64,000 nucleotides of DNA, taken from positions 43,841,429 to 43,905,428 of the forward strand of contig CM028328.1 in NCBI GenBank assembly GCA_016647705.1. Reading direction: 5' to 3'. Shown here piece by piece: positions 964-57,773 of this stretch. Below the pieces are notes generated by a model that did no database searches, had not been told where the DNA came from, and worked only from the letters and a program-made list of their open reading frames with translations. The translations under genes were made by a program, and so were the position numbers. Each line of letters opens with the position of its first letter. Positions within the stretch are counted from its first letter, which is position 1. The stretch is from Eucommia ulmoides (lineage: Eukaryota; Streptophyta; Magnoliopsida; Garryales; Eucommiaceae).

Positions 964-2751
964 CGCTGAGAAAATTGTTCTTTGTAATCCTATAAACCCA
1001 ATATTGTGCCTTTTTAACTTGAAGTGCTAAACTTTGCATATTCACTTTTGAATGGAGTTGATATACCCATATTGAAGTTCTCTTGCCGACAGGTAAGTCC
1101 CAAGATTGTTTTAATTTATGTTTCTGTTTATGTGGTTGTCATTTCAAATTTATATTTGTCGCTCAAATTTTAGAATATGTGTATTTTAGAATTTATGTTT
1201 ATGTTTTCCATTCTTTAATTATTTAGGAAATTTGTTTACCGTTCTAAAATTAGTTTTTGTTTTATTTTAGGCTAAAGTATTAGGGCTAATTAGTTCTTTA
1301 CATCAAGCTAAATCATCGTCGTTCCTATGTTCATCCCTAATCACAAATACTCTCCTCTCTCGCTCTTACTCATTTGATTTATGGTTTTTATTTTTAATGG
1401 GAATAATTTTACAGTCTGAAAATTATATAAACCAATTTAAGTTTTGATCTATGAATGGCGGTTTAATTTTGCTGATTTATTTTCCTCCAACTTGGTCGAA
1501 TTTGATTTGCATTTTTTTTTCTTCTCTGATTTCATTCAGATTTTTGCGAAATCAACCCACTAAATCTGAGTTTTTCCATTTGTTTTTCGTAAATCTAGGT
1601 TTTTTCTCTCTTTTGTAGATGGTTTGATGGTTTAATTTGTGTTGGTAGTTATTAGTTATTTTGTTGCTATATTTTTGTTTTCGTTACTTCCGTTTCTGTT
1701 TCTGAAAAATTTTAATGTCTATGTTTTATATATTGTTCTCAATTTATCTGTATGTGTATTTCCAATCAATGTTCTAACTTTTCTTTTTCGAAATTGTGTT
1801 CCCGATTTTTTTGGTTTCCTAGCAAAATTATGTGCTTTTGTTGGCTAATGTTTTTTGGTTTGTGATATTCTTTCCAGGCTCATTTCTACATTCCATTTCG
1901 CTAGAAGATAATCTCCCACCCAGTTTGGTATAATTATTTAGTTAATGAAATCGAGCATTACTAGTTAGTTTTTTTGAATTTTTCGAAATATTTGAATTTC
2001 AACCTTGATGTAGCTTTTCTACGAAGTTAAACTATGAACTCGATTTCATAAACTTGAAATTGGTAGTGAATATAATACAACTACATTACTATAATTACAT
2101 TGTTGTTTGTTTTTTCACATAATTTTGACTTCTATTTTATTGGTGGATGGCTATTATGAGAATTTTATGCCCAATAACGTAAATACTTGGGAGACGGTTG
2201 GCTATTATGACTTTTAGAAATTCATATCGTTAAAATTAATGTATTGATTTGTTTCAACGTTATTTCCTCATTTTACTTGGGTATATAATTTCAATGGTAA
2301 AATCATGTTCTGAACCGCGTGATTCTTAAGTTTTTACCATTATGACTATTATTTTTCTCAGCTGAAGTTTATGGTGTTTATTTCATACCGTTGTTTTAGA
2401 TGTGGTCATATCTATTTTGGAGAACATGGAGGTATGAAAATCACCCACCTCTAGCTCACTTTACATTTTTATTTTAAGATTGTAAAAGATGACTCTTCAT
2501 GGTAGGATAAAAATGCTCATTTTTTTTTTTTTTTTTTTATTATTATTATTATCTTAGATTTAACACTATATATATTTCTCCTATATTGTACATTTAACTT
2601 CAGAATCAAACAGAAGATGATTTTGTTCCCCCAACTTTAACAGTTAGATTTTTTTTTTCCTTTGATAAAAAAATTCATCTTCCAACAGATAAACACATGA
2701 ATTATGTAATATATTTTGACTTATTTCAATAGAGTTGAGGAGATCATAGGC

Positions 2752-46781: not shown

Positions 46782-47186
46782 TTAATTTGTAGATTCCATT
46801 TCAACGGTGATTGGTAGTGGTAAATTTATTCGGATGGCTTCGCGGAACATAGGGAAATGTAGGGTAGGAAGTGTAAATATCGAGCAAAGAGGAGGATGAG
46901 GCAGCTTGCACTTGTCAGGGAGCTGAAAGGCGAGGTTAAGGTCAATCCCGAGCGAAGGCAAGAGCTTTTTGTAAGAGCAAAGGCATCGGATGTCGGCGTG
47001 AGACAGCGCCTGGCAACACTCCGGTGACGGTGGCCGTGGGTTCGGCGGAGTCACCGACGGCTTGCAAGCCATGAGACCCGCACCATTCATTCCGCAGACT
47101 ATTTGGCCTTCCGACACTTGAATTCCGACGGCCATCAATGAGACAGCCACCACTACTAAAACCTTTAGCTTTATGGATATCTCTAT
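46782..47186 (-). pseudogene. DIR1-like lipid-transfer protein, copy 1, start lost
   Basis: The product is a small secreted eight-cysteine lipid-transfer protein of the DIR1 type; in Arabidopsis DIR1 takes part in systemic acquired resistance signalling. The mature part reads C-x9-C-x15-CC-x9-CxC-x22-C-x7-C, with PPNPRPPSPECC carrying PxxP motifs and IRCLCSYKKLLPSLG. A hydrophobic signal peptide (LKVLVVVAVSLMAVGIQVSE) precedes it. The start codon used by copies 2 and 3 (Met before EISIK) is ATA here (47184-47186). The upstream Met at 47231 is only six bases past the TATA box, so it is unlikely to lie on the mRNA. A 34-residue tail follows the eighth cysteine. Confidence 0.75.
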
Positions 47187-47236
47187 TTTGTTATCACCCT
47201 TTCGTAATTTGCTTGAACAAACCCTTTGCATCTGTC

Positions 47237-47248
47237 TATATTTATATA
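47237..47248 (-). promoter_or_regulatory. TATA box of DIR1-like copy 1
   Basis: The minus strand reads CCATTGGTATATAAATATAG, a strong TATA element about 50 bases before the EISIK position. It shows that the longer open frame starting MNNLF is not the real start. Confidence 0.7.
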
Positions 47249-47465
47249 CCAATGGGAGACTTGCAAATAGTTCCCAAATAAATAAATTGTTCATAATTTC
47301 ATGTGTATTTGATTTAACTGGTCAAATAATAGTGAAATCAACAATCATAAATAATTCATTTATTTTATTTGAGCGTTGCACTTTTAATTCTCTATTTTCG
47401 GAGAGCATGTTAAGCGACGGTTTTATCTATTTTTTTACCATTTCTAGTTACGTTTTATTAAAACA

Positions 47466-48121: not shown

Positions 48122-48134
48122 TTCGTAAATGTAA
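48122..48134. repeat. LINE target-site duplication, left
   Basis: TTCGTAAATGTAA, identical to 57761-57773 after the A-rich tail. In unit 2 the uninterrupted site reads TTCGTAAATGTAATATTTCC at about 61004. Confidence 0.93.
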
Positions 48135-48741
48135 GCATGTTAATCAAAGACATTTCAAAAACAGAAGTATATTTTAGTGAGAGAGAGAGTGACTGGGGAA
48201 ATGTGCCTGGGCAATTTCAAAATCGTCTAGCCGTTGCAAAACACGGCCGGCGAACTTCTGGTGAATTATTTCGATCTCAGTCAAGCAATCGGAAGAGGGT
48301 GAATGATCGACTGCTATTGTAGATAGAGAGAGAGGTTCAAAGATCTACGGAAGTATAGCATCGTGGAGGAAGATCAGTAAGAAACGCAGCATCAGAAGAT
48401 TTTAGATTTATGGGTGGTTGTTGAAATCGAATGGTAGCGGTTTGCATGTACCAAATCCAACATTTTTAGGCTGTTAGATAATACAGAGCAGGTCAAGGGA
48501 GCTACAAACCAGACGACACCTCTTCAGGGCTGAATCGGATCTTATGGGTTTCGGCGGCAGATGAGTTGCGTCGAGAGCAATTGGGTAAGGTATGGAATTG
48601 GTTGGTGTTTTCAACTTTTAAGACTAGTCCCTGTAATAACTACTTGCTGAACTAAGAGGAGGAGATTTTGTGTCCTCCTCGGTTGATACCCACTAAAACA
48701 GAGGGTTTGAATCTAATAGAGAGATAGTCTATTTGTGGGCA
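48135..48741 (+). other. LINE 5' leader
   Basis: This runs from the target-site duplication to the first Met of ORF1. It is less AT-rich than its surroundings and includes AGAGAGAG tracts near 48179 and 48325. Plant L1 leaders carry an internal promoter, but no specific element can be pointed to. Confidence 0.55.
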
Positions 48742-48792
48742 ATGGATTATAGTAGAGGTAATTTGCAACAAGGCAAGGAGAAGGTTGTACTG

Positions 48793-49611
48793 TGTGGCTA
48801 ATGTAGTAGAAGATTCAGCCAAAAATGGGCTCCATTCCTGGCACTGGTTCATGTGGGATATAATATGGAAGAAGCTCTAGCCTCGTTGGGTGTGTATGAG
48901 GATTGTTGCAGTAAGACCTTTCAAAGGCAATATAAATTTTGGAATAGTAATGGGGGCATGAATCCAGTAGTGATAGGGGTAGAAAAGAAGAAAGAGTCAA
49001 ACGAAAGGGTGTTGGCTTCACTGTGCCCAAAGTGTAGAAGTTTCAAGAGGATAAATGTCAAGGGTATGCTCAGACTAATCAGAGACGGCTATGAGGATGA
49101 TGAAGAAATGGACATATTGGGATTGGACAATTCGTGCTGCAGGGACCATATAAGGGCAGCCTTGAGGAGAGAAAGTAGGAAAGAAAATGGGGGAGTGAGT
49201 TCCGACTTGGTTAGAGAATGAGGGAATGAGGAATGGTTAGCTTGGAAAGAAGTTATGAAAACAGAGGAAGGTTTTCTAAAAATGATATGTGATCAGTGCA
49301 AAGGCTTTTCTAGATTCAAACCAAAATGTTGGATTAAATTGGTGGAAGACGGATGGAACGAGAATGATGCCCTTGATTCATTGGGTGTTGTCATGAATTG
49401 TTGCAAGACGCAAGTGAGATATGGTCTAAGATCGAGGGAGTGGGTAGAGAGAAGCGCGAACACAGTGATTCCTAATGGTTTGTTCTTCTCATGCTGCAAA
49501 GGCTGCAAAAAGTATATGGAAGTCAACTGCTTGGTTCTAAAAACCCAAATAAAGTTTGCCAATAGTGTGTGGAATGCTCTGCACTAAGTGGGGGTCAAAA
49601 AATGGTGTTGC
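48793..49611 (+). other. Four tandem RPB10-like C-x2-C-x33-CC repeats
   Basis: First-cysteine and double-cysteine codons are at 48793/48904, 49024/49135, 49288/49399 and 49495/49606. Each unit is C-x2-C, exactly 33 residues, then CC. Key segments before CC: MEEALASLGVYED, DEEMDILGLDNS, ENDALDSLGVVMN, and NALH-stop-VGVKKW. RPB10, the zinc subunit N of RNA polymerases I-III, has CxTC-x33-CC with DALDALGLxRY before CC, so spacing and consensus agree. Repeat 1 has a stop codon between its first two cysteines and repeat 4 has one four codons after its NAL segment; both look like point mutations. The function is unknown. Confidence 0.8.
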
Positions 49612-49755
49612 AAGAATCACTTCGTTAACCAATGCGCAGAGGACAGGGGAGATAACAAATTGGAAGTCCAAAGAATCAGTGAAAATATGGAGAAACAGCA
49701 CAATGCAATAGTGACGGGTGAAGAAATGAGTAGAGCAGAGTTAGGTAGGGACAAC

Positions 49756-49998
49756 ATCACAACTCTGTTCGTGGATAATCTGCCCTTACAAGCATCAAAA
49801 TTCTGGCTGCAATGCTTTTTCGGTAGATGGGAAAATGTGGTGGATTGTTTCGTATCAAGTAAAAAACGGTATGCAAAACCGGTAGCATTTGGATTTGTGA
49901 GGTTTGATTCGAAATTGGAAGCTGAGGAAGTGGCAAGAAAAGAGAAAAATTACACAGTAGGAGGGAAGAGATTATGGGCATCGGTGGCAAAGTATGAC
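49756..49998 (+). other. RRM domain of LINE ORF1
   Basis: RNP2 reads TTLFVDNLP and RNP1 reads AFGFVRFDS, about 35 residues apart, followed by VGGKRLWASVAKYD. It is an RNA-recognition motif, as in several plant L1 ORF1 proteins. No stop lies inside it. Confidence 0.85.
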
Positions 49999-51760
49999 CA
50001 AAGGAGAAACAAAAAGGAGGATAGTCGGAAAGCAGAAGAAGACTCAGAGTAATTACAAGAAGTATTCAGAAGGCAAACAGGTAGGAGCGATCAGGGTTAA
50101 CATAGCGGAGAAGGCGAAAAATGGAAGCAGGAGATCCTGAGTTGATTGGAGAAAAAAGGAGGAAGTTAGAAACAAAAGAAAGTGGTGATCGGAACGAAGT
50201 GTCAGGGTGCAGAAATTGCAACAATCCGGTGTCCTTAAGATTAACTGTTGATATGGAAGGTAGGGAATGGTTGAAAAGGGCAGCAGTGGGAAAACTTCAC
50301 TCTTACATGACGATGGAGCACTTAAACTCAGCCTTTATCCAAGAACAAGTCTTTTCAACGACGGCAAAGTCGTTGGGAGGAAAATCGGTGCTTCTTAACT
50401 TCGACTCAGAGGAAACAAAGGATGTTTTATTGGATTGGAGGAGATGCAGTTGGTTAGAAAACTGGTTTGAATGGGTAAAGGAATGGAAGGAATCTTATGC
50501 TAGCAAGGAGAGGCTCACATGGATTACAATTGTTGGTATCCCAGTACATGCGTGGAAATGGAAAGTATTTAGAAGTATTAGTGAATTGTGGGGAGAGCTA
50601 ATATAGGTGGAAGAGGATACGATGGAAGAAATAGCATACGATAAGGGAAGATGTTTGATTTCAACGGAGTGTAATTTCGGAATAAACTCAGAGATGGATT
50701 TGGTTATCAACGGGTGTAGTTTCAAAATCAAAGTAATGGAAGAGTCTTTTCTAAGCACTTTGAGTAGATCCATTAATGGGATTAAGAGAGGAGTGGCTAG
50801 AAGATCATCGCCGGGGAAAACAACAAGCATTACTAGTGAGAAAGAAGATGGGAAATCGATTAACTCACTGGAGGAAATGGAAGGGGGTGATATCCGCAAT
50901 TTTAGCAAAATTAGAGTGAGGGGCCAAAGTACAAAAACAGTAAGTGTAGGGGCCAGTAGAGATTTTACTAGTGATTACCCTATTCAAGAGGATGGGCACA
51001 GTCAGAAGGGTTATTCTGAACAAAGGGGTTGTGGAAACTTCTCCCTAACGCTTTGAGTGCTGAGAAGGAGAAAGGGGAGGAATGGAAGAAGGATCAAGAT
51101 CGAGCTAAAAAAGAAAACCCTTCCTTCTGAAGACCAATCGGCAACCACGTGAGGAAAGTCCTGTTCCCAGCTTCTGGTGGTAAAGATGCTACATGTGTGT
51201 GCAGTGATTTTGAAGCGGTGGCAGCTGTCTCGTCCGAGGTAAAGGAAAAAGGAGAGACCAAGGTTCAAGCGGAGCCTCCTCTGGTAGAAGAAGGTCAGTC
51301 ATCGGCAGAAAATAAAGGTAACTTATCTAACTTTGAAGATGAACTGTTGGGGATAACATATATTTCAGAGTCCTCTCAAATAGCGGAATCTTTTTTAAAT
51401 AAGAACAAGAGGCAAGAAAGATTGTTGGTTAAAAAAAAAAAGAAACTAAAGCGTTGCTTGAAAGACTTAGCGCCTATTCGGAAACAGAAGTGGTCTAGGA
51501 GGAGGAAAAGAATCACAACTTTTCCTCCGCCTAAGGAGATTACTGACAATTCGGTTTCTGATAGGGGAATTAAAAACTGTAATAAGTTGTTTTTGGAAGA
51601 ATTAGATAGGTTCCTCTGCATAGGGAAGCAAATGGGTTGGACCGTTAGAGATAATGAGTTGGAGATAAAAGAAAAAGTGCTTGAAATGATATCTAAAGAT
51701 TGGAATGCTTTTGAAAAAGAAAGGGTAGATATAGGTCTTAAAAATTTGTAGTGTAGAGTT

Positions 51761-51835
51761 TATAAATAAATAAATCAATAAAAAAAAATTATATATATAT
51801 ATATATATAATATAATATTAATAATACCAATTTGT
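51761..51835. repeat. AT-rich spacer between ORF1 and ORF2
   Basis: AATAAATAAATC, an A run and (TA)n in the short gap between the two reading frames. It contains AATAAA-like strings but is internal to the element. Confidence 0.7.
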
Positions 51836-51879
51836 AGTGTAGGGCTTAGGTAGGAGTCTTTACCTTAGGTAATTTAGGA

Positions 51880-52635
51880 ATGGTGTCTCTTATTAGCTGG
51901 AATATTAGGGGGGCTAATAGTGTGGTGAAACTTAAAGCAATTAGGGAGCTAATTAGAGTTAATAGGGTGGTAGTGTTGTTCTTACAAGAAACTAAGTTGG
52001 AATTGATTTTGGAACCTCTAGTTAGACGGATGTGGAGCAATGATGAAGTAGCGTTTGAGTTTGTCAGTTCTGTAGGGAAATCAGGGGGTATACTTAGGGT
52101 GTGGGATACTAAGACATTTAAATTAGAATCTAAAATGGGTGGGGAAAGATGGTTACTTTTGAGCGGAATTTTGATAGAGAGCAACCTAGCTTGTGTCCTC
52201 TTAAATGTATATGCTCCTAATGGAATCAAAGACAGGGAGACTCTGTGGAGAGAATTGTCCATAATTGAATTGTCCATAATTAAGAAAAATATGGAGTTAC
52301 CGTGGGTTGTAGGTGGAGACTTTAATGTTGTCCTTAAGGTTGAGGAGAGGAACCATTGTTTAGGATTGGATAGAGGAATAACAAATTTTAGGCAATTTGT
52401 GGAAGAATTGGATCTTGTGGATCTTCCAATGCAAAGACGAAGATTTACGTGGTCCAATGCAAAGTCAGCTAGCAGGTTAGATAGATTCCTTTGTTCCCCG
52501 AAATGGTTGACTACGCTTAGGGGTATTGTTCAAGTTGGGCTACCCAAAGAACTCTCTGATCATGCTCCAGTTCTCTTAATGGAATCCTCAACTGATTGGG
52601 GACCTAAACCTTTTAAAACCCTAGATTGTTGGTAA
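51880..52635 (+). other. APE-type endonuclease domain of ORF2
   Basis: Motifs in order: SWNIRGAN near residue 5, LFLQETKLE near 38, LLNVYAPNG near 107, VVGGDFNVV near 143, SRLDRFL near 200 and SDHAPVLL near 225. These include the Asn, Glu, Asp/Asn and Asp-His residues of the AP-endonuclease fold that nicks the target. The TAA at 52633 cuts the domain from RT. Confidence 0.93.
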
Positions 52636-52725
52636 GCCTCCCCTAAATTTTCAGAATTTGTTGCTACTGAATGGGCTGGAATTTCGGGTTCATGCCTAGC
52701 AGGGAAGCTTTCTTTAGGAGATAAG

Positions 52726-54558
52726 TTGAGGAAGCTGAAGTGGAGACTGAAGGAATGGAATAAAAGTCATTTCGGGAATGTGGACTTGAAAGTAGCAAGG
52801 ATTAAGTCTCAACTAGAAGCTTTGGATAGAATTCAGGAGAATAGAGTTTTAGATTCTCCGGAGGTAGAAAGTAGGGTTAAATTAACAGCAGAACTATGGT
52901 CAACTAGTTGGGCTACGGCTAGCCTGTGGAAACAGAAGTCCAGGATTAGGTGGGCTCAGGGGGGTGATAGGAATACGAAGTTTTTTCATGCCACGGTTAA
53001 GATTAGAAGATCCATGAATAATCTGAACACCTTAAAAGTGGGTGGAAATACTTTGTCTACTCCTGGTCTAATCAAATCTGAAGTGTTTAGGTTCTTTAAA
53101 GAACATTTTAGAGGGAACCAATGGGATAGACCAAGATTTGAATCATTAGACTATGCGGTCCTAGAAGAAGATTCTAGGATGGCCATAGAGAAGCCGTTCA
53201 CTTTGGAAGAGGTGGAGGCAGCTTTAGAGTCCTGTGATGGGAACAAATCACCCGGGCCGGACGGGTTCAACATGAATTTTATCAAAAATTCATGGAAGTG
53301 GATAAAGGGGGAGATTATGTCCTTTTTCATGGACTTCTATGATGGAGGATCTCTAAACAAAGGGGTAAATGCAACCTTCATTGCATTAATCCCCAAAGTG
53401 TTGAACCCCATGACTCTAGGTGATTACCGACCAATTAGCATGGTCAATTGCTTATATAAGCTTCTAGCTAAAACTTTAGCTAGAAGACTTGGGGGAGTGT
53501 TGGGGTCGTTGATTGGAGAGTCGCAAAGTGGTTTCCTTAGAGGGAGACAAATCTATGATAGTATCCTAATTGCAAATGAGGTAATAAAGGAGACTAAAAG
53601 AAAGAAAAAGAAAGTCCTAATGTTCAACCTTGACTTTGAAAAAGCATACGATTGTGTAGATTGGGACTTTCTTGACTTTACCTTGTCTAAATTTGGGTTT
53701 GGAGTTAGGTGGAGAAAATGGATTGGTGAGTGCCTTAATTCGCCTTCAGTATCGATGTTGGTCAATGGGTCCCCCACTAAAGAGTTTAGAATGGGTTGTG
53801 GATTGAGACAAGGGGATCCTTTGTCTCCAGGATTATTCTTATTAGCAACCGAAGTTCTAAACTTACTAATCCAAAAGGTGGAAAGGCTAGACTTGATTCA
53901 TGGAGTTGGATTAGGAAGAAATTCACTCTCAATAACTCATTTGCAATTTGCGGATGACACTTTAATCTTTTGTAGGGCGGAGGGTCAAGATGCGGTAAAT
54001 ATCAAAGGTGTTCTTAGGCATTTTGAGACATGTTTGGGTTTAAGGGTAAATTATCATAAGAGTGTCTTAGTGGGAGTTGGGGTAGATGGGTGGAAGTTAT
54101 GTGGGGTCGCTTCCCTCCTAAAATGTAAAGTTGGCTCTCTTCCAATTACCTATTTAGGGATGCCTTTGGGGGCAAACTCTAATAGGATTAGCTCTTGGAA
54201 TCATGTTATTGAAAAACTCCAAGCTAAATTGAGTGGGTGGAAGTCACATTTCCTATCATTGGGGGGAAGAGTGACCCTTATCAAAGCTGTTTTGTCCAGC
54301 CTACCCCTATACCATCTCTCTATGTTTCGAATTCTGGTGGGGGTAGCGAGGCGTCTAGAGAGGATCATGAGGTGCTTCTTATGGAAGTCTTTGGAAAAAC
54401 GAAAGGTTCATTGGGCTTTTTGGGGAAAGGTGACTAGGAGAAAAAAGTGGGGAGGGCTGGGAATTAGTAGAATTATAGAGAGGAATGTGGCCTTATTGAC
54501 CAAGTGGTGGTGGAGATTTGGTATGGAGAAAGAAGCTTTGTGGAGGAAACTAGTATGA
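52726..54558 (+). other. Reverse transcriptase domain of ORF2
   Basis: Motifs: NKSPGPDGFNMNFIK, YRPISMVNCLYKLLAKTLA, FNLDFEKAYDCVDW (motif A Asp), GLRQGDPLSPGLFLLA, LQFADDTLIF (FADD catalytic box), ITYLGMPLG and KLSGWKSHFLSLGGR. All are standard for plant L1 elements. It ends at a TGA after LWRKLV; the frame continues beyond it. Confidence 0.95.
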
Positions 54559-55310
54559 GCTAAATACGACCTAGAAGAAGAGGCTTGGCTCCCCCGAGAG
54601 GGGAAGAGAGGGTCACCCTCTTCTCCTTGGATGATTATCAAGGCTATAGTCTCAAATTCAAGATGGTCTTCAATTTTGCTAGAAAACTTTGGTTTTACAG
54701 TAGGGAATGGGAGATCAATAGTATTTTGGGAAGATAATTGGTCTCACATAGAGAAGTTGAGCTCCCTTTTTCCTAGAATCTATAACCTTGCAATTCTTAA
54801 GAAAACAAAAGTAAGTGAATTGGGTAGTTGGGTGGAAGGGAGCTGGGTATGGTCTATTGCCCTTAGGAGACCGTGTTACGAGTGGGAAAAGGATGAATGG
54901 GTTAATCTCCTTGGTATCCTTAGATCTGTAGTTCTTTGTGAGGATTTGGAGGATACTTTGGTTTGGAGGGACAACCCGAACGGGTTGTTTTCGGTCAAGT
55001 CTTGTTATAATCTTGCCGAAAAACTCGACTTGAGGGTGGAGGCCCCTTCTCCCTTTAAGTGGGCTGGTTGGGCTCCCCCAAAGGTAGAGACTTTTGCTTG
55101 GCTTCTAGTAGCTAACAAAGTTTTAACGAGGGGGGAGCTGGGTAGGAGGAATTTAGTAGATGTGTTAGACTTAGTTTGTCCTATGTGTGAGGACGACATA
55201 GAAGAGAGTGTTTATCTTTTTATTTTTTGCCCTTGGACGTGGTCTATTTGGAACTCTATTCTTGAATGGTGGAGTAAACTTTGTATTCCCCAATTCTTTA
55301 AGTCTTTTGT
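54559..55310 (+). other. ORF2 linker and zf-RVT zinc-binding region
   Basis: It continues in the RT frame. GLFSVKSCYNLAEKL, AGWAPPKVETFAWLLVANKV, and LVCPMCEDDIEESVYLFIFC followed by WTWSIWNSILEWW form the zinc-binding region found between RT and RNase H in plant LINEs. The usual His of CxxC...H...C is Tyr here (ESVYLF), a likely inactivating change. Confidence 0.85.
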
Positions 55311-55559
55311 GGGAACAATGGTTAGGCCAAGAGGGAGTGGGTTTGCATAAGATCATTTGGGAAACATTATTGTTTTCGATGGTTTGGTTAGTGTGGCTTG
55401 CAAGAAATGAGAGGGTTTTTAGAGGCTCCATTTTGGAGCCAAAGGAAGTTGTGTGGTTGATAAAGGTAAGGTTAGCTCTTTGGATCTTAGCTAAGAAGCC
55501 GGACTTAGGCTACTCAGTTAGGGATTTCATGCTAACCATTGGGGGAGTGAGATCCTACA

Positions 55560-56061
55560 AACCTTTAACAAAGGTTAGAGACACTATTTCTTGGGCCCCT
55601 TCTCCGAGGGATTTTCTCAAATTTAATGTGGATGGTTCCTCTTTGGGAAACCGGGTCCAGCAGGAGTAGGGGGTGTTTTGAGGATCGGGAGTGGGAACAT
55701 TTTGTGCCTATTTTCGGAATCAATCGGTGTGGCAGACTCCAATGTAGCAGAACTAAAGGCGATAGCAAAAGCTTTGGAATTGTTTTCTAAATCGTCATTA
55801 AATAGTAGATTTTCCTTGATTATTGAAAGTGATTCTAATAATGCAATTGTGTGGATGCTAAGCCATAATAAAAGGCCATGGAAGCTGAATTTTATTTTTA
55901 ACCATTGCTTTAAGTTGTTGCAAGCTTTGACAGTTGTAAAATTTGTGCACATCCGTAGAGAAGCTAACTCAATTGCAGATAAGTTGGCAAAGGCGGGGGT
56001 CAACAAACTTATCCCTCTTTGCAAGTGGTTGGTGGACCATTCCAGGCCTGAGGAAGTGTAA
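55560..56061 (+). other. RNase H domain of ORF2
   Basis: The first catalytic Asp lies in LKFNVDGSS (in the shifted frame). After the frame returns come GPAGVGGVLR, VAELKAIAKALELF (Glu), IIESDSNNAI (Asp) and REANSIADKLAKAG (Asp). This is the plant L1 RNase H that removes RNA after reverse transcription. The shift near 55650 separates the first Asp from the rest. Confidence 0.9.
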
Positions 56062-57760
56062 CATGGGTTCTCTTGTTTCTAATTTAGTATAGTATTGATA
56101 TTCATACTTTTGTTAACTAATTGGTTTTGATTTTGTGATTGCACAGAGATTGGTGGCGTTGTCTTCCTTGCTTACCTTAATGATTGACACTATTTAGTAA
56201 CAGGTTGAAAAGGTTGTTCAAAGTAAGGCTAAGCTAGTAGAGGTAAGTTCAGGTTGGTGTTCTTTCTTTGGTCATAGGTATCTCTTTGGGGTTCTTTTTG
56301 GGTCTTATTGTGAGTGTTCGGTGGGTTGTTCATTGGGTTGTTGGGTGGGAAGTCCTGCTGGCTCCTTTGGTGAGGGTGGTGATAGATTTTTTGCGTGAGT
56401 ATTTTGGTGTAGTGAGGGACGAATCCAAAGTCGTCTGATCTCCCGCTTCCCCACTGGAAGTTGGCATAGTGAGGCGAGGGCGGCTTAATAGAAGTGAGGT
56501 GGTTTGCTTGTTTAGTAGTTACTGGGTGATTTTTTGAGTTGAAGTTGCCAGCCTGCGAAGTCCGCTGTAAGTATTTCTATTACCTTTCCTCTCGGGGTGC
56601 TAAGGGTGGACCATATTTGTGTGATAGAGAGGTTTAGTGGGAGTAAGTTGAGGGTGAGTATGGTCCCGAGGGTTGTTAGGGGAGTCCACATCCTTCTCCC
56701 CACTGGGAGTCGTAATATTGAGTATTTTTGGCAGTCTTGGGACTCACATGTGTAGAGGAGGTTGATTGGCTCATTGTTACTTTGTATGCGTAGGCCATTG
56801 TACCTATTGTTGTTGGGTTTGCAGGGGATTGTGACAGATATGAGTTGGCTCCAAATTATAAACAGAGGAAGATTTAGGTCTAGCTTCTGCTGCGGATTTT
56901 TAATTCAGATTAGCTGGTTGGAAGTGTATTTTGTTTAAGATTGATGTTGGCAGAGTATGGTTGCGTTGGTGGCGGACCTGCGCGCTTGGCCGACTGCTAC
57001 TGGTTTGGTGGAAATGTTCCAGTTTTCTCTTTATGGCACGTTCAACTGGCTGTCTTCAGGCTATTCGGAGCTGCTGCCGGTACTACATTGCTAAATTGCA
57101 GACTGTTTTGCTGAAACTGCAGCTTGATTTCACGCAAGTTATCCAATTTCTTCAGTTTAGTTCGCTGTAGATTATTTAAGGTTGTTTTTGTGGCGGAACC
57201 TGGGTATTCTTGTAGATTTCCAGTTTGTTACGTGTGTTTTGGAACTCCACTTCGTTGTTCCTTCTGGTTTTTATGTCTTGAACGGTTTGCCTTCCATGTA
57301 GCAGAGATCTCTTAGAATCTCTAAATCTAGGTTCTGTGTGTTTGCCTTGTCGAGATTTTGAGGGGATCTTTGCTAGGTTGGCCTGGATTTTTGGTAAAGT
57401 TGAGTTCGGAATTGAAGCACGTTCTTTGTTCTTCTCCGGTGGAATGTGGCTATTTCAATAGAGGAGCACAGGAGTTGCAGGGTGTATTGCTCGGTAGAGA
57501 AGATGTTGTGTAACTAATGCTAGGAGTGTTGTAAGCGTAATTTAGGGTTGTCTTGAGTGGGTTTGTAATTGAGATCTTTTTGAATCTCTTTTGTAGGCTC
57601 ATAGCTGGCCTTGTGAGATTTAAGGGGATCTTTGGTTGGCTTTAAGGACCAACCTGTTTTGCGTTCGGTCTGGGATTGAAGCAGTCCATTGGAAGCTTCA
57701 TACTCGATCGCATCTCTTTTGCAATATAACATTTTGCCTATAAAAAAAAATTAAAAAAAA
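56062..57760 (+). other. LINE 3' region and A-rich tail
   Basis: About 1.7 kb, G/T-rich on the plus strand, without a recognised gene. It ends in CCTATAAAAAAAAATTAAAA, the tail, directly before the target-site duplication. The words TGAGATCT/TTTGAATCTC and GGCTTTGTGAGATTTA are loosely repeated. Confidence 0.75.
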
Positions 57761-57773
57761 TTCGTAAATGTAA
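57761..57773. repeat. LINE target-site duplication, right
   Basis: TTCGTAAATGTAA, identical to 48122-48134. The unit 1 sequence resumes after it with TATTTCTGGATTGATTAAG, matching unit 2. Confidence 0.93.

Follow-up and report, generated by a model that had tools for sequence, protein, structure and literature searches.

Why should a plant retrotransposon protein carry, one behind the other, four copies of a motif that recalls a subunit of RNA polymerase? The question is raised by a stretch of 64,000 nucleotides of Eucommia ulmoides DNA (GenBank assembly GCA_016647705.1, contig CM028328.1, positions 43,841,429 to 43,905,428, forward strand), referred to below as the window. It contains a long interspersed nuclear element (LINE) whose first open reading frame (ORF1) begins with an array of four units of the pattern C-x2-C-x33-CC. 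The same pattern occurs in RPB10, a single-domain subunit that ranks with the most strongly conserved ones of the RNA polymerases of archaea and eukaryotes. The comparisons described here support homology between the array units and RPB10 and reveal conservation of the array under selection. We consider it reasonably probable that a captured and multiplied RPB10 zinc bundle has been reused as a basic multi-zinc module acting on nucleic acid or within the element's ribonucleoprotein (RNP).

A motif scan of the whole window in six frames found exactly four C-x2-C-x33-CC units and no further ones. As the initial annotation had claimed, all four lie in a single frame, which opens at the ATG at 48742. 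They begin at 48793, 49024, 49288 and 49495, the last motif ends at 49611, and the 33-residue spacing is exact in each of the four. Shuffling the residues of the 437-residue stretch 200 times never produced the motif. An RRM and then a DUF4283 domain lie downstream of the array, and the element is a full-length LINE; the proposed position of the array, ahead of the RRM in a LINE ORF1, is thus borne out. Two TAA codons, one within the C-x2-C of unit 1 and the other in unit 4, and a TGA past unit 2 interrupt the array frame. With three in-frame stops in its array, the window copy is a decayed pseudo-copy. Its ORF1 features are as follows:

48742..50052, plus strand: ORF1 frame, N-terminal part, from ATG to stop, with three in-frame stops within the array (by translation; sister copies share the start and a near-identical N-terminus)
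48793..48909, plus strand: RPB10-like putative zinc unit 1, C-x2-C-x33-CC, with a stop within C-x2-C in this copy (RNA_pol_N E 3e-6)
49024..49140, plus strand: RPB10-like putative zinc unit 2 (RNA_pol_N E 0.0029)
49288..49404, plus strand: RPB10-like putative zinc unit 3 (RNA_pol_N E 0.0013)
49495..49611, plus strand: RPB10-like putative zinc unit 4, with an internal stop in this copy (RNA_pol_N E 0.15 alone)
49765..49974, plus strand: RRM (RRM_1 E 1.1e-8)
50355..50600, plus strand: DUF4283 (E 7.2e-7)

Units were compared with the Pfam family of RPB10 (RNA_pol_N, PF01194), whose curated cut-off is 26.9 bits. Taken alone, unit 1 of the window lies above this value (27.8 bits, with an X at the stop) and units 2 to 4 lie below it. 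The other loci considered here, designated by L-numbers, come from the same genome, the single one searched (947 Mb). Whole ORF1s from two of them matched RNA_pol_N with E 1.3e-12 and 48.2 bits (L009) and E 2.1e-12 and 47.5 bits (L010). L052 reached 35.0 bits, L056 scored 22.1 bits, below the cut-off, and L054 gave no match at E<=0.1.

A set of 22 diverse units (set A1; 15 are also in set A3) was chosen by hand from 55 stop-free units, leaving out near-duplicates; some divergent units (unit 1 of L039 and of L053, and a poorly matching motif of L055) are omitted from it. The set was collected by the cysteine motif, so that its cysteines are invariant by construction. RNA_pol_N matched 21 of the 22 at E<=1 (best 3e-8), and every other Pfam family matched two at most. 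Other zinc families were rejected, two C2H2 models matching two units each with best E-values of 0.034 and 0.11. Searched against the PDB, the 22-unit profile retrieved RPB10/RpoN chains, of which 8him_J scored best (1.5e-9); no other hit fell under 0.6. When unit 1 was left out, the profile of units 2 to 4 still had RPB10 first (E 3.2e-6), with nothing else below 0.4, and hhalign gave E 1.6e-7. In core shuffles that left the cysteines in place, the excess over chance was 5.9-7.0 standard deviations (SD) for unit 1 variants, 2.6-4.8 for units 2 and 3 and 1.8-3.3 for unit 4; hence, the likeness goes beyond the cysteines. Core residues common to the units and RPB10 are L24 (19 of 22 units), G39 (17) and A34, L35 and L38 (16 each). 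W18 is confined to the unit-1 group (7 of 7), and F8, V13 and Y43 of RPB10 are missing from all units with a residue at these positions (19 to 22 units). Altogether, the Pfam, PDB-profile and shuffle tests support the descent from RPB10 suggested in the initial annotation, and no competing zinc domain gave a better match.

Related LINEs with the same arrangement are present elsewhere in the genome, stop-free copies included. A 297-aa array query gave at least 107 matches (the searches score limited candidate lists, so that copy counts are lower bounds). At least six near-full-length matches lack a stop, and three of these belong to open frames 852, 918 and 934 codons long. Translated from an ATG, the array-bearing ORF1s of two sister copies are 837 and 903 aa long. 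In seven comparisons between subfamilies, involving L027 or L029, the ratio of nonsynonymous to synonymous change (dN/dS) in the array was 0.20-0.29; among the three closest copies it was 0.43-0.61, where, we think, post-insertion decay weighs more. Against L036, synonymous change was saturated and dN was 0.23. To follow the fate of the cysteines, 27 divergent loci were aligned on homology rather than on the motif, which makes the test unbiased; two overlapping duplicate loci were dropped. Ligand cysteines were kept in 297 of 339 cases (88%), against 3010 of 5884 (51%) for other positions and 30 of 63 for other cysteines.

The order of the units varies between families. It is 1-2-3-4-RRM in family A, and 2'-1'-RRM in L052, in a single frame, and in L054, in two frames. 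L055 and L056 have units 3'-4', with an RRM behind them in L056 and the extra, poorly matching motif upstream, in a different frame, in L055. L022, L055 and L056 share a unit 3 to unit 4 distance of 207 nt. In a unit tree of 45 columns and low resolution, unit 2 (support 0.954) and unit 4 (0.982) each formed a clade across families; the unit 1 grouping was weak (0.652) and unit 3 was not firmly grouped. The cross-family clades of units 2 and 4 indicate that part of the duplication is older than the families.

Co-location of RRM and array was scored without regard to strand, using 124 of 149 RRM rows, all 107 array rows and a hand-picked 24 of 122 further rows. An array match lies near 47 of the 124 LINE-RRM matches compared, and within 2.5 kb of 41 of the best 42. 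Four of these 41 neighbours rest solely on weak matches (E 0.056-2.67), one of which, L061, was confirmed by inspection; the lone exception, L059 at rank 30, proves on inspection of its sequence to contain decayed units. LINE-like, RRM-bearing loci without array units also exist (L057, L058, L060 and L062), so that the array seems to mark a single LINE lineage.

Two further loci show units in unusual settings. In L012 (1771-2500; G000:C16, about 50063770), a family-B LINE copy, three residue-identical units follow one another head to tail at intervals of 284 bp, each in a different frame. L017 (~2030-2450, reverse strand; G000:C15:41753122) contains a decayed two-unit RPB10-like fragment; visual inspection of the sequence read behind it showed no RRM. 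This PF01194 locus, with CCQRML past the core, was considered as a unit with an RPB10 tail and rejected: the tail then diverges and a stop follows soon after.

The segment past the CC is where identity to the polymerase subunit is almost completely lost. In every unit, 0 or 1 of 12 residues there are identical to host RPB10. None of the units with a residue at the position concerned (19 to 22 units) retains R47, M48, L49, V53, D54, L55 or I56, and H52 is found in 2 of 22. The C-terminal HVDLIEK segment expected of a functional RPB10 is not recognisable; it is presumably the conserved motif mutated in the Pol I work referred to below. The units are embedded in ORF1s of 837-903 aa and are not stand-alone subunits of ~70 residues. 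Isoelectric points also differ, the four units of L009 being basic (8.38-8.95) and the host RPB10 core acidic (4.99). The host genome has two separate RPB10-like loci, with exons NKWDTYLDLLQADYTEG and DALDALGLVRYCC, close to chain 8him_J, which we take to be a plant polymerase chain; a similar chain, 8hil_J, is labelled as a subunit of polymerases II, IV and V. A unit with such a tail could bind another partner, but it is unlikely to replace RPB10.

We envisage that a plant L1-type LINE lineage took in RPB10 coding sequence; as host RPB10 has introns and the array has none, capture through mRNA would fit. In ORF1, upstream of the RRM, the zinc-bundle core would have been multiplied into four or more unit types, and the polymerase-binding tail would have decayed. 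Array and RRM would bind and condense the element RNA, or chaperone it during target-primed reverse transcription, with the array probably standing in for the CCHC knuckles that plant ORF1s of the RRM type usually have. No CCHC knuckle (C-x2-C-x3-6-H-x3-6-C) was found in the ORF1 of L009 or L010; a passage in PMC4120745 describes RRM-type ORF1s as normally pairing the RRM with such knuckles. Two other papers state that L1 ORF1 binds, protects and transports element RNA (PMC9033089) and that the RPB10 fold is classed among DNA/RNA-binding 3-helical bundles (PMC4999995). We infer the capture route, zinc binding and RNA binding, and with them that basic zinc bundles do the work of the CCHC knuckles.

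Several points weigh against this proposal. The evidence is the sequence of one genome, and the putative zinc-bundle fold is assigned from profile matches. On its own, unit 4 scores poorly (E 0.15; shuffle p 0.001-0.045). In 10 close loci, which include the query's own, ligand cysteines (151 of 160) are hardly different from other positions (2549 of 2810). The basic charge is modest, with 48 K+R against 37 D+E in the array of one copy, and it is no proof of nucleic-acid binding, since zinc bundles bind proteins too. Nor is the tail wholly random: of the 19 units (out of 22) that had a full tail, 17 score higher than the shuffle mean, by at most ~2.2 SD as derived by hand from shuffle means and SDs. 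Finally, no relatives were found among 1279 protein-database candidates (length 0.55-1.75 of 837 aa) or 4099 others (around 432 aa), although gene sets often mask transposons, so that this negative is no proof of absence. None were found in GTDB genome contigs and IMG/VR either, as expected for a plant element.

There is a minor chance that the array is instead a protein-protein module, that is, an oligomerisation or host-factor-binding zinc array that leaves RNA binding to the RRM. The conserved zinc cysteines and a hydrophobic core kept while most other positions vary among unit types would suit such a role; the basic units of L009, set against an acidic parent, and the absence from the two ORF1s tested of the CCHC knuckle usual beside an RRM argue against it.

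We give less credence to polymerase mimicry, whereby the units would bind the alpha-like partners of RPB10 (RPB3/RPB11 or AC40/AC19). The LINE RNP would thereby be anchored where transcription takes place, or its integration would be guided, as Ty1 integrase achieves through AC40. Homology to RPB10 and the weak residual similarity of the tail speak for it. According to PMC8160253, RPB10 joins the alpha-like heterodimer during polymerase assembly and has the alpha-like pair on one side and the beta-like subunit on the other; PMC13374769 has the Ty1 integrase targeting via AC40/AC19. PMC8160253 also reports that mutation of a conserved RPB10 motif depletes the largest Pol I subunit, and the residues past the CC are those that the units have lost. 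Tail decay thus speaks against a polymerase tether. Mimicry, though possible, is less supported than nucleic-acid or RNP handling, and the earlier suggestion that the captured subunit brings the element to sites of transcription finds no support. No tRNA genes were detected in nine loci and the window, a weak negative, as the loci are mostly the element itself and the sample is too small to decide on Pol III targeting. Slimmer still is the prospect that the units continue to dock on the alpha-like subunits or a related surface, so that the LINE RNP rides along with one of the host's RNA polymerases. In plants this might be one of the silencing polymerases IV/V, whose subunit 10, by PDB chain names, is RPB10. 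Were such docking true, a retrotransposon would have stolen a piece of the polymerase in order to locate transcription or to escape it.

Convergence, in which an unrelated CX2C...CC zinc fold resembles RPB10 by chance, is very improbable. Taken singly, unit 4 and certain variants of units 2 and 3 do score weakly; against this stand a spacing of exactly 33 residues as in RPB10, the five core residues found in 16-19 of the 22 units, and significant profile matches with no rival family. That the array is noise, decayed DNA with chance cysteines and no real domain, as the three stops of the window copy might suggest, is refuted for practical purposes by dN/dS below 0.3 between subfamilies, ligand conservation in divergent copies and sister copies with open frames.

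The element itself has the makeup of a plant L1-type LINE, with ORF1, an ORF2 with endonuclease, reverse transcriptase and RNase H, a poly-A and a target-site duplication; the L1-type assignment reflects this architecture, not reverse-transcriptase phylogeny. Its bounds are approximate (~48135 to 57760). Identity to four sister loci (blastn) is 94-96%, and 84-94% in the 3' part; homology to sister copies begins at 48176-48195. The remaining features are:

48122..48134, no strand: 5' target-site duplication TTCGTAAATGTAA, 13 bp, exact match to 57761-57773 directly past the poly-A
48135..57760, plus strand: full-length LINE, decayed copy (blastn against sister loci; poly-A from 57742; target-site duplication)
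51880..52635, plus strand: ORF2 endonuclease part (Exo_endo_phos E 2.7e-14)
53416..54165, plus strand: ORF2 reverse transcriptase (RVT_1 E 3.4e-33)
54988..55251, plus strand: ORF2 zf-RVT (E 5.6e-14)
55690..55995, plus strand: ORF2 RNase H-like domain (RVT_3 E 3.5e-14)
57761..57773, no strand: 3' target-site duplication, 13-bp match to 48122..48134

Some 41 bp (48135-48175) separate the target-site duplication from the onset of sister homology, perhaps a variable 5' end. In the 3' untranslated region, a stretch of ~255 bp (56882-57136) matches two sites in L063 and about three in L064, and looks tandemly repeated in these sisters. A lipid-transfer-protein-like gene (46785-47294, minus strand; LTP_2, E 3.7e-11) lies beside the LINE.

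No published description of RPB10 units in LINEs was found; the search did not take in Repbase or the text of the main surveys of plant LINEs (Heitkam and Schmidt 2009; Heitkam 2014), where prior notice is possible. If our proposal is correct, an essential polymerase fold, once captured, tandemly copied and kept under selection, can become a building block of a retrotransposon ORF1. The zinc repertoire of LINE ORF1 would extend beyond CCHC and PHD, and the array would provide a natural experiment on which RPB10 residues serve the fold and which serve polymerase assembly.

Among known systems, the units resemble RPB10/RpoN (PF01194, RNA polymerase N / 8 kDa subunit) in C-x2-C-x33-CC, core helix residues and Pfam and PDB profile matches; they differ in being tandem within a retrotransposon protein, intronless and, in one copy, basic, with an unrecognisable tail. 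BNR of Beta vulgaris is reportedly an RRM-type plant L1 LINE, with an RRM in ORF1 ahead of an endonuclease-reverse transcriptase ORF2. Compared with BNR and with RRM-type plant L1 LINEs of its kind, the present elements have an array before the RRM and lack CCHC in the two ORF1s tested. The Type I ORF1 of Khazina and Weichenrieder, in the passage of PMC4120745 that sets it out, also bears an RRM, directly upstream of a CCHC knuckle; here the zinc units precede the RRM and are of RPB10 type, and the CCHC knuckle that defines Type I is absent from L009 and L010. The PHD-bearing ORF1s of CR1/L2 LINEs, as that source presents them, likewise have a chromatin/transcription-type zinc domain shuffled into ORF1; PHD, however, belongs to another zinc family and is present there in a single copy.
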